DNA from: a virus
Length of the DNA: 41,526 nt
Direction: 5' to 3' (one strand)
IMG/VR virus record: IMGVR_UViG_3300045003_000061
Coordinates: 1-41,526 of that record
In this document: piece by piece, positions 36,683-39,074 of the stretch
Numbering within the stretch: the first letter of the stretch is position 1
How the letters are laid out: every line of letters begins with the position of its first letter
The notes under the pieces: generated by a model
The model's database searches: none
What the model was told of the DNA's origin: nothing
The model's input: only the letters and a program-made list of their open reading frames with translations
Translations under genes and position numbers: made by a program

Positions 36683-36730
36683 GGGGTGCGAACCGCGGCC
36701 GACGGGCCGCGCTGTCGGGGGGGGGTGAGT

Positions 36731-37033
36731 ATGGAGGATCACGGTTCGGGACTTGTGGCCGCCGTCGCGAGCCTGCTCGCGGCGATCGGCTTTCCCGGCT
36801 TCGTCGTGTGGCTGGTCCGCCGCGGCTCGGCCGACAAGGAGCTGATCGAGGTCTTGCGGAAGGCGCTCGACAAGGGCCGGGTCCGCGAGAACGCATATTG
36901 CGGCGCGCTCGACGCGTTCATTACCGGCGTCGATTCGCTCGAGGATCCGCCGCCCGCACTGACCGCAGCCCGCGCCCGCGCCCTTCGGCGCATGGAAGAA
37001 GCGAATTGCCAGCTCAACGGGAGGACAGGATGA
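36731..37033 (+). CDS. Single-span membrane protein, 100 aa
   Basis: ATG at 36731 follows a GGGGGGGTGAGT leader (a GTG two codons upstream is possible). N-terminal helix GLVAAVASLLAAIGFPGFVV (about residues 8-27), then WLVRRGSADKELIEVLRKAL and a charged helical tail. Just upstream of the holin-like gene and lysozyme, it could be an antiholin or a second holin. Family not recognised. Confidence 0.55.
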   Translation: MEDHGSGLVAAVASLLAAIGFPGFVVWLVRRGSADKELIEVLRKALDKGRVRENAYCGALDAFITGVDSLEDPPPALTAARARALRRMEEANCQLNGRTG

Positions 37034-37206
37034 ACGCCGATCAAGGGCGGCCGTGCGGCCGCGATCCCGACACGCGCCGGGGCATAGGGAAGGCGCTCGG
37101 CCGAGCGCTTGGCGCGCCGCTGCTGGTCGATGCCGCGGCCGATGCCGCGTTCGCCTCGAGCATCGCCCGGCTTCGCGGCGAGACGAACGCGGGGGGCAAG
37201 CCATGA
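37030..37206 (+). CDS. Small hypothetical protein, 58 aa
   Basis: ATG overlaps the previous TGA (ATGA at 37030-37033) and the gene ends in ATGA with the next. Basic N-terminus (MNADQGRPCGRDPDTRRGIG), then an Ala/Leu-rich helix (ALGRALGAPLLVDAAADAAF). Located inside the lysis cassette; no function can be assigned. Confidence 0.55.
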   Translation: MNADQGRPCGRDPDTRRGIGKALGRALGAPLLVDAAADAAFASSIARLRGETNAGGKP

Positions 37207-37430
37207 AGATCCGGCTCGTGCCCGACTGGAGCAAGGCGCTGCGCTGGTGGAGCGTTCAGCTCCATCTGGCGGCGACGGGCTTCCTCGCCGTTTATGCGCT
37301 GGTCCCGAGCGTGCCGCCGGAGATCGCGGCGATCATCCCGCCGGCCTATCGCGCGCCGCTGCTCGCGCTGTGGGCGGTGCTCGGCCTCGCCGCGCGGGTG
37401 ATCGAGCAACGGAGCTCGGCCAATGGCTGA
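37203..37430 (+). CDS. Putative holin (DUF7940-like), 75 aa
   Basis: ATG at 37203 overlaps the previous TGA. MKIRLVPDWSKALRWWSVQL is the typical opening of a small phage holin-like family, followed by two membrane helices (LHLAATGFLAVYALVPSV and APLLALWAVLGLAARVIE) separated by a Pro-rich loop. It overlaps the lysozyme gene by eight bases. It should form the membrane lesion or depolarise the membrane to trigger lysis. Confidence 0.75.
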   Translation: MKIRLVPDWSKALRWWSVQLHLAATGFLAVYALVPSVPPEIAAIIPPAYRAPLLALWAVLGLAARVIEQRSSANG

Positions 37431-37995
37431 CCCGGCGCCGAGCTCGGCGAAGCGCAAGACGCTGATCGGGATCCTCGGCGCGGCCGCGGCGATCGGCGCC
37501 GTCGTCAATGTCGCCAAGGAGGAGAGCGGGCGAACCGTCACGGCCGCGCCGACGGCTGACGGCCATGTGGCGATCCGCCATGTGAGCGGGCCGCAATATC
37601 TGAACGCCTATCAGGACGTGATCGGGGTTTGGACCGCCTGCGACGGGATCGCCTACGTCAAGGCCAACGCCAAGTTCACCGAAGCGCAATGCTCGGCGAT
37701 GCTCGAGGCGGCGCTCGTCGACACGGCCGATCACGTCATGGCCTGCACGCCGGGCCTCGCCGGCGCCGGCCATGACAATCAGCGGATCGCGGCGGTGCTC
37801 CTCGCCCATAACATCGGTTGGCCGGCCTTCTGCCGGTCGACGGCCAGGGCGCGCTTCAACGCGCGCCAATATGCCGGCGCCTGCGACGCCTTCCTTCTGT
37901 GGAACAAGGCCGGCGGGCGCGTCGTGAACGGGCTCGTCGAGCGGCGCAAGCGCGAGCGGCTGATCTGCCTTAAGGACGTAGGGAGGGCGGCGTGA
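37423..37995 (+). CDS. SAR-type lysozyme (endolysin), 190 aa
   Basis: Residues 14-30 (LIGILGAAAAIGAVVNV) form a weakly hydrophobic signal-anchor-release segment, then VAIRHVSGPQYLNAYQDVIG and VWTACDG, a GH24-type lysozyme pattern with D65 and T71 in Asp-x5-Thr spacing. The usual Glu nine residues before the Asp is Gly56 (next to Ser55). Cys-containing later parts (VMACTPGL, AFCRSTARARFNARQYAGAC, CDAFLLWNKAGGRVVNGLVE) follow the lysozyme C-terminal pattern. Degrades peptidoglycan after holin action. Confidence 0.8.
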   Translation: MADPAPSSAKRKTLIGILGAAAAIGAVVNVAKEESGRTVTAAPTADGHVAIRHVSGPQYLNAYQDVIGVWTACDGIAYVKANAKFTEAQCSAMLEAALVDTADHVMACTPGLAGAGHDNQRIAAVLLAHNIGWPAFCRSTARARFNARQYAGACDAFLLWNKAGGRVVNGLVERRKRERLICLKDVGRAA

Positions 37996-38456
37996 TCGGC
38001 GCATGGTTCACCAAGCAGGCGATCAAGGGCTTCATCGGCAAATACGGGCTGCAGCTCGGGATCCTGATCGCGGTTCTCGCCGCCGCATGGTTCCTCGATC
38101 ATCGCGGCTATCAGCGCGCCCAGGCCGAGAGCCATGCGCGCGAGCTCGAGCGCGCGGCGATCACCGCCGCGGCCGTCGCGGCGATCGATCAGCAGCTCGA
38201 CGGCAAGCTCCGGGCGATCGCCGATCGGCTCGACGTCAGGCTCGACACTCTCGACAGGGAAGGAACGACCGTTGTTCAACCGATCATCACCCGCGAGCTC
38301 GAGCGCGATCCTCGCCTTGCTGCTCCCGGTAGCTGTCTCACTCCCGAGCTGCTCAAAGCCGTTAACGCCGCCCGCGGCTATCCCGCCGGCGAGCTCGGCC
38401 GCGACGCTGGATCCGCAGACCCGCAAAGCCTGCCCGGATCTGCCGATGGTCGCTGA
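37992..38456 (+). CDS. Inner-membrane spanin (Rz-like), 154 aa
   Basis: GTG overlaps the lysozyme TGA (GTGA at 37992-37995). One N-terminal membrane helix (GLQLGILIAVLAAAWFLD, about 19-36), then a periplasmic coiled coil (QRAQAESHARELERAAITAA, QQLDGKLRAIADRLDVRLDT). This is i-spanin topology. The outer-membrane partner is encoded in another frame inside its 3' end. Confidence 0.75.
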   Translation: MIGAWFTKQAIKGFIGKYGLQLGILIAVLAAAWFLDHRGYQRAQAESHARELERAAITAAAVAAIDQQLDGKLRAIADRLDVRLDTLDREGTTVVQPIITRELERDPRLAAPGSCLTPELLKAVNAARGYPAGELGRDAGSADPQSLPGSADGR

Positions 38457-38625
38457 CGGCTCGGCGATCGGGATCGCGTCGGCCGACGCCGGCGCCTCGA
38501 TCGACTATCGCAAATGCCAGGCGCGGCACGGCGCGGCGGTCGCCGCGTTCGACGCGCTGGCCGACGCCTACCGCCAGCTCCGCGAAGCAATCACCGCCGG
38601 CGTCAAGAAGGGGGGGAAGCCTTAA
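38272..38625 (+). CDS. Outer-membrane spanin lipoprotein (Rz1-like), 117 aa
   Basis: TTG at 38272 with AAGGAA seven bases upstream, embedded in another frame in the i-spanin gene. A lipoprotein signal ILALLLPVAVSLPSC places the lipidated Cys at residue 27, followed by a Pro-rich stretch (SKPLTPPAAIPPASS) typical of Rz1. It then runs 169 bases beyond the end of the i-spanin gene with a helical tail (HGAAVAAFDALADAYRQLRE). Partly embedded spanin arrangement. Confidence 0.7.
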   Translation: MFNRSSPASSSAILALLLPVAVSLPSCSKPLTPPAAIPPASSAATLDPQTRKACPDLPMVADGSAIGIASADAGASIDYRKCQARHGAAVAAFDALADAYRQLREAITAGVKKGGKP

Positions 38626-39074
38626 TGTCGAGCAAACCAGTCACGGATCTGCCGGCGGCGGATCCGCTCTCCGGCGACGAACTGATCCACGTCGTTCAGC
38701 ACGGCAGCAGCCGCAAGACCACCGCCGCGTCGATCGGCGGCGGCGCCTATCATTACGGATCCTTCGCCGTCGCCGCGATCGGCGCGGGCGAGATCCTGAT
38801 GGATCATGTCGTCGCGACTCCGCACGTGCTCGCCGCGAATTTCGCCGGCTGCGTCGCCAGCGTCGGGACGCCGCCCGACGGAAACTGGATCGCCGACATT
38901 CAGAAGAACGGCGTTTCGATCGGGTCGCTCACAATCCATCCCGACGGCACCGTGACATGGCCGGCGGTCGCGGCCGTCGCCGTCGCCGCCGGCGACGTGA
39001 TCGCGCTGATCGCACCGGCGATCGCCGACGGCTCGATCGCCCGCCTCCGCTTCACTTTCAAGGGATCGCTCTAA
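38625..39074 (+). CDS. Fibre-associated or tail protein, 149 aa
   Basis: ATG overlaps the spanin TAA (TAATG). N-terminus MSSKPVTDLPAADPLSGDEL, IHVVQHGSSRKTTAAS is a pattern widespread at the start of phage tail-fibre or receptor-binding proteins. The C-terminal part is beta-rich (GNWIADIQKNGVSIGSLTIH, ARLRFTFKGSL). It is short for a full fibre and may attach to another tail protein. All tail genes 38625-40278 are linked by TAATG overlaps. Confidence 0.65.
   Translation: MSSKPVTDLPAADPLSGDELIHVVQHGSSRKTTAASIGGGAYHYGSFAVAAIGAGEILMDHVVATPHVLAANFAGCVASVGTPPDGNWIADIQKNGVSIGSLTIHPDGTVTWPAVAAVAVAAGDVIALIAPAIADGSIARLRFTFKGSL

Follow-up and report, generated by a model that had tools for sequence, protein, structure and literature searches.

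A phage lysozyme of the GH24 type very probably keeps its catalytic glutamate ahead of a predicted inserted hairpin

The window analysed here, a 41,526-nucleotide stretch of viral DNA (positions 1 to 41,526 of IMG/VR record IMGVR_UViG_3300045003_000061), encodes a probable phage endolysin whose active site appears at first to lack its glutamate. The initial annotation held that the GH24 pattern E-x8-D-x5-T keeps Asp65 and Thr71 in this protein and that the position of the catalytic Glu has turned into Gly56, so that either the alignment is shifted and a different acid does the work, or the enzyme uses a different catalytic arrangement. Asp65 and Thr71 are indeed retained as D-x5-T, both in the open reading frame and in the triad columns of our alignments, and Gly56 does sit nine residues ahead of Asp65. 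Reading Gly56 as the Glu site, however, assumed that there is no insertion. We conclude that the 190-amino acid protein is very probably a GH24 endolysin of the T4/R21 type whose triad, Glu34/Asp65/Thr71, is complete and in which a predicted hairpin inserted after Glu34 gives the spacing E-x30-D-x5-T. The features of the gene are as follows, the hairpin class being the 45 sequences, among 196 distinct ones aligned, with 29 to 31 residues between Glu and Asp/Cys.

37423..37995, + strand: GH24-type endolysin (phage lysozyme) of 190 aa, probable SAR (signal-anchor-release) endolysin (ORF, PF00959, PHROG 7, AlphaFold2)
37459..37515, + strand: probable SAR segment, residues 13-31, judged by composition, with a putative anchoring role
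37522..37524, + strand: codon of Glu34, the proposed catalytic glutamate (column conservation, position near the end of helix 20-35, T4 Glu11 register)
37531..37587, + strand: insertion of residues 37-55, 19 residues more than in E-x11-D relatives, predicted to form a beta-hairpin (strands 38-43 and 49-55; alignments, AlphaFold2)
37588..37590, + strand: codon of Gly56, first taken for the Glu position (G in 45/45 of the hairpin class; outside the Glu column)
37615..37617, + strand: codon of Asp65, the triad Asp (column D in 177 and C in 19 of 196)
37633..37635, + strand: codon of Thr71, the triad Thr (column T in 195 and D in 1 of 196)

The reading frame starts with the ATG at 37423 and its stop ends at 37995. 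Its product matches PF00959 (Phage_lysozyme, E 1.1e-26; 94 bits, above the curated cut-off of 22.3) and the PHROG 7 endolysins (E 4.8e-35). The AlphaFold2 model (mean pLDDT 93.8, pTM 0.87) was computed from a 45-row alignment of relatives, and the predicted fold thus depends on that alignment; it shows a helix at residues 20-35, the two strands of the hairpin and the lysozyme core after them. Foldseek placed this predicted model closest to 3hde (R21), 6et6 and 4zpu (DLP12 endolysin) in PDB, and the VIA-align Z scores of up to 18.7 are consistent with a T4/R21 lysozyme fold. Matches in BFVD were either named lysozyme or endolysin or carried no name.

Relatives were collected by viral-contig scans seeded with the window protein (best 80 of 131 relatives), with a protein of Microcystis phage Mae-JY29, with locus L001 and with a 14-sequence alignment (best 80 of 119), and additionally by one genome-contig scan and from two phage-record regions. 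This gave 221 loci, including repeats of one contig (for example, L001, L161, and L184). Since two of these scans were reduced to their best 80, the class counts given below describe the fetched set and not nature, and the hairpin class is favoured in them because the Mae-JY29 protein, L001 and the 14-sequence alignment were hairpin-class seeds. A first MAFFT alignment combined 44 of 70 prepared references with the window protein (45 sequences). The wider alignment contains the 221 loci and the window protein minus six loci, that is 216 sequences of which 196 are distinct; left out were three fragments (L142, L078, and L095) and L164, L165, and L172. Two of the latter, L164 and L165, read DESGRTV and have the hairpin, and L172 reads WESGG.

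In these alignments the Glu column is occupied by Glu34 and its counterparts in all 45 sequences of the first set and in 196 of the 196 distinct sequences of the wider one, and Asp65 and Thr71 likewise fall in their triad columns, so that the alignment predicts a complete GH24 triad. The column of Gly56 is a different one, where 122 sequences have a gap, 71 a G, 2 a K, and 1 an A. The canonical E-x8-D/C-x5-T spacing is absent, with 30 residues separating Glu from Asp and the D-x5-T part intact. The catalytic Glu probably looked lost only because the extra hairpin separates Glu34 from the rest of the active site. We also scored the protein with an ungapped profile built from 29 E-x11/12-D relatives; it spans the 24 residues that flank their Glu, and the Glu itself was unscored. 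Glu34 reached 35.2, the next best position -0.9 and Gly56 -21.3; a profile from 15 E-x8-D SAR-type relatives gave 19.4 for Glu34, 6.1 for the next position and -15.9 for Gly56. Across the hairpin class, the residue nine ahead of the Asp reached the score of the Glu in none of the 45 sequences. We therefore rejected Gly56 as a true replacement of the Glu, on the evidence of alignment, ungapped profile and model alike. Most likely, the catalytic glutamate is Glu34: of the two alternatives offered by the initial annotation, a shifted alignment with another acid in service is the one borne out, and a different catalytic arrangement is not supported, given that Glu, Asp, and Thr occupy the expected columns of the alignment and the predicted fold is that of T4/R21.

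Two other assignments of the acid were weighed against Glu34. If the Glu had truly been lost to Gly56, another acid of the cleft such as Asp74 might act as the general acid, and both Asp74 and Gly56 are invariant in the hairpin class (45/45 each). The Asp74 column, however, holds D in 94 of the 196 sequences, 49 of which lie outside the hairpin class and have the Glu in its usual place; Asp74 is therefore not a replacement that arose in the hairpin class, and Glu34 itself is invariant and in register by alignment, ungapped profile and VIA-align. We regard a lost Glu as very unlikely, and Asp74 as a new general acid was set aside as unnecessary and not peculiar to the class. Still less probable is Glu33 as the catalytic acid: the ungapped profile did choose the residue preceding the aligned Glu as its anchor in 14 of the 45 hairpin-class sequences (the aligned Glu in the other 31), but this position is variable within the class (E 22, D 22, F 1) and mostly W/F in the other sequences, and its neighbour, residue 34, is E in 196/196.

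The structural comparison, in which VIA-align registers were taken from the first aligned residues only, points to the same glutamate. Most of the listed T4 lysozyme entries align T4 1-157 with residues 24-186 of the model (Z about 12-13). With T4 residue 1 at model residue 24 (for example, 1t8g), Glu11 of T4 would pair with residue 34 if helix 1 is free of gaps, and the overlay by aligned range thus favours Glu34, a residue that the initial annotation had named beforehand as one that would speak against its reading. As a control, we modelled an E-x11-D relative without the hairpin (L115, mean pLDDT 88.4), in which T4 1-157 falls on 29-171 and places Glu11 opposite the undisputed Glu39. For 6et6, 7m5i, 2anv, 9kbq, 4zpu, and 8hp8, the residue number reached is identical in the window protein and the control. 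A shift of one residue separates the two in 6h9d, in 9kbs, in 8app (where different chains were aligned) and in the T4 entry 3sb7, which would give T4 residue 13 for the window protein but 14 for the control. The shift is two residues in 3hde_C and in 1xjt, and it grows to 9-11 residues in 9kbt and 8b2s, both of which fit poorly. For both proteins alike, the residue reached differs from the Glu listed in the available part of PMC8228626 (in brackets) in 6et6 with 66 (64), 7m5i with 17 (15) and 4zpu with 29 (35), and the aligned ranges of these three entries therefore hold gaps.

The spacing between Glu and Asp/Cys in the 196 distinct sequences is 8 residues in 122, 11 in 28 and 12 in 1, and at the wide end 29 in 1, 30 in 43 and 31 in 1. 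The insertion of the window protein amounts to 19 residues over the E-x11-D relatives and 22 over the E-x8-D ones. Close relatives without the hairpin carry the motif KTLIG-x17-WESGGRPRLxAYRD; the window protein has KTLIG-x16-EESGRTV, about 17 residues, and then HVSGPQYLNAYQD. Counted by eye, the distance between the KTLIG Lys and the ESG Glu is 23 residues in both. The hairpin class is invariant (45/45) at L14, G19, A23, E34, S35, G36, R37, G56, Y63, D65, T71, C73, D74, and G75, residues 34-37 thus reading ESGR throughout, and His53 is H in 44. A Cys-Asp-Gly site (residues 73-75, window 37639-37647) follows Thr71-x in all 45, and its middle residue (residue 74) is D in 94/196 and Y in 66/196 of the whole set. 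Thinning by identity left 118 of the 196 for a tree, which was built on 127 columns from residue 60 onwards and so excludes the hairpin. On it the hairpin requires three changes, two of them forced by well-supported branches, and a single hairpin clade was not rejected (p-AU 0.32). Among its rows, L216 lies nearest to the window protein (72% over 125 columns) and likewise belongs to the hairpin class. Judged by these sequences, the hairpin class represents a well-known enzyme in an uncommon spacing, with a triad that appears otherwise ordinary.

Comparison with known enzymes sets the variant apart mainly by its insertion. R21 of phage 21 (PDB 3HDE) resembles the window protein in fold (VIA-align Z 18.1, rmsd 2.0, 145 aligned residues) and in its Glu/Asp/Thr triad. 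Its N-terminal anchor reportedly also lies ahead of the catalytic Glu, as in the window protein. R21 differs in its E-x8-D-x5-T spacing (Glu35/Asp44/Thr50, according to the available part of PMC8228626), against E-x30-D-x5-T and a hairpin in the window protein. T4 lysozyme shares the core fold and the triad (Glu11, Asp20, and Thr26 in the same part of PMC8228626), but has neither the anchor nor the inserted hairpin. The accessible text of that 2021 paper, on LysF1, states the E-x8-D/C-x5-T motif for all published structures of the family; in LysF1 itself, it locates the putative catalytic Glu where helix 1 ends on its C-terminal side. For inverting enzymes, it gives 7.2-9.5 A as the distance comparable to Glu34-Asp65. 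The accessible part of PMC9239132 describes Mu gp22, a SAR endolysin in which the motif is canonical. The endolysins of phiCbK-like Caulobacter phages come closest in principle: as proposed in the part of PMC3556154 available to us, the Glu is kept and moved upstream by an insertion before the Cys/Asp, with 16 residues from Glu to Cys. There, however, the insertion is a Gly-Pro-rich loop (E-x16-C) in a soluble protein without a SAR domain, whereas the window protein has a predicted hairpin, 30 residues from Glu to Asp and an anchor. The E-x11-D relatives (for example, L115, L003, and L083) share the family, the position of the anchor and the ESG at the Glu; they have three residues more than E-x8-D and lack the hairpin. 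The protein of Mae-JY29 (PP438421, L081), named 'glycoside hydrolase family protein', belongs to the hairpin class with 30 residues from Glu to Asp and shares about 50% identity with the window protein; its product name is silent on the insertion. No description of an E-x30-D lysozyme was found in the accessible portions of the literature searched, and one may still be in print. L081 (PP438421.1, Microcystis) and ON968454.1 (Pseudanabaena) are cyanobacterial phage records with endolysins near the family of the window protein, the hosts of the other listed phage records of this family being mostly proteobacterial, and the recorded hosts of these two may deserve a check.

The weak N-terminal anchor proposed by the initial annotation is present at residues 13-31 (TLIGILGAAAAIGAVVNVA), preceded by Lys10-Arg11-Lys12. 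With 6 Ala and 3 Gly among its 19 residues and a mean Kyte-Doolittle value of 2.06, it is weakly hydrophobic and Ala/Gly-rich, as in SAR endolysins, and in the predicted fold the anchor helix continues up to Glu34. Signal-anchor-release control is plausible from such a segment directly ahead of Glu34. The available part of PMC9239132 gives release from the membrane as the definitive test of a SAR endolysin. In the proposed sequence of events, the lysozyme would first exist as a SAR protein that is tethered to the membrane and inactive; on leaving the membrane, the anchor would become helix 1 of the lysozyme domain and bring Glu34 to the cleft, and cleavage would then follow a T4-type mechanism. 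In R21, the anchor leaving the membrane is likewise said to refold as helix 1 and to deliver the catalytic Glu to the cleft.

The gene lies beside the following lysis-related genes:

37203..37430, + strand: holin-like gene (DUF7940, E 2.7e-12; PHROG 1356 holin, E 9.1e-15), overlapping the endolysin start
37992..38456, + strand: probable inner-membrane spanin (Rz-like; PHROG 1403, E 2e-4; N-terminal hydrophobic stretch)
38272..38625, + strand: possible outer-membrane spanin (Rz1-like), read from the sequence in another frame and overlapping the Rz-like gene

The Rz1-like frame has a TTG start and a signal-peptide-like stretch ending in LPVAVSLPSC, and for the longer ORF (38134-38622) neither Pfam nor PHROG gave a confident family match. 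Upstream of the holin-like gene are two small overlapping ORFs (36686-37033 and 37030-37206), likewise with no confident match in Pfam or PHROG; L001 contains a weak relative of the first (35.6% identity, E 1e-5). ARAGORN called a tRNA-Gly (gcc) at 38950-39029, inside an ORF after the lysis genes; in GC-rich coding sequence, such a call may have arisen by chance. At the 44 other hairpin-class loci (tblastn, E up to 1e-3), the holin-like gene was matched at 2, the first small ORF at 1 and the other three neighbour genes at 0, so that a conserved neighbourhood gives no sequence support, and part of these misses may be missing DNA since some of the loci are short. No phage record was matched by megablast of window positions 20000-41526 (about half of the window). 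That the protein is an inactive lysozyme relative acting as regulator or decoy is hardly credible: activity data for the hairpin class were not found in the accessible literature searched, but E34, D65, and T71 are each present in 45/45 of the class, the gene sits between holin-like and spanin-like genes, and no second copy elsewhere in the window was among the listed hits of a tblastn search that covered GH24 relatives (196 sequences, 196 hits, of which 182 lie inside the gene and, of the remaining 14, the 10 listed all overlap it).

The insertion site is where the anchor meets the lysozyme domain, and the hairpin should adjoin the active-site cleft because its start is next to Glu34. We hold it possible, while leaning somewhat against it, that the conserved hairpin (Arg37, His53, and Gly56) is a functional module beside the catalytic Glu, for example, as a gate that keeps the active site closed before anchor release or as a source of extra contacts to peptidoglycan, in a lysozyme class with a spacing of its own, E-x30-D-x5-T. 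Motif searches with E-x8-D/C-x5-T will overlook the hairpin class or label its members inactive. A structure from this class would reveal to what extent insertions are tolerated in the active site, as well as any effect of the hairpin on SAR control.
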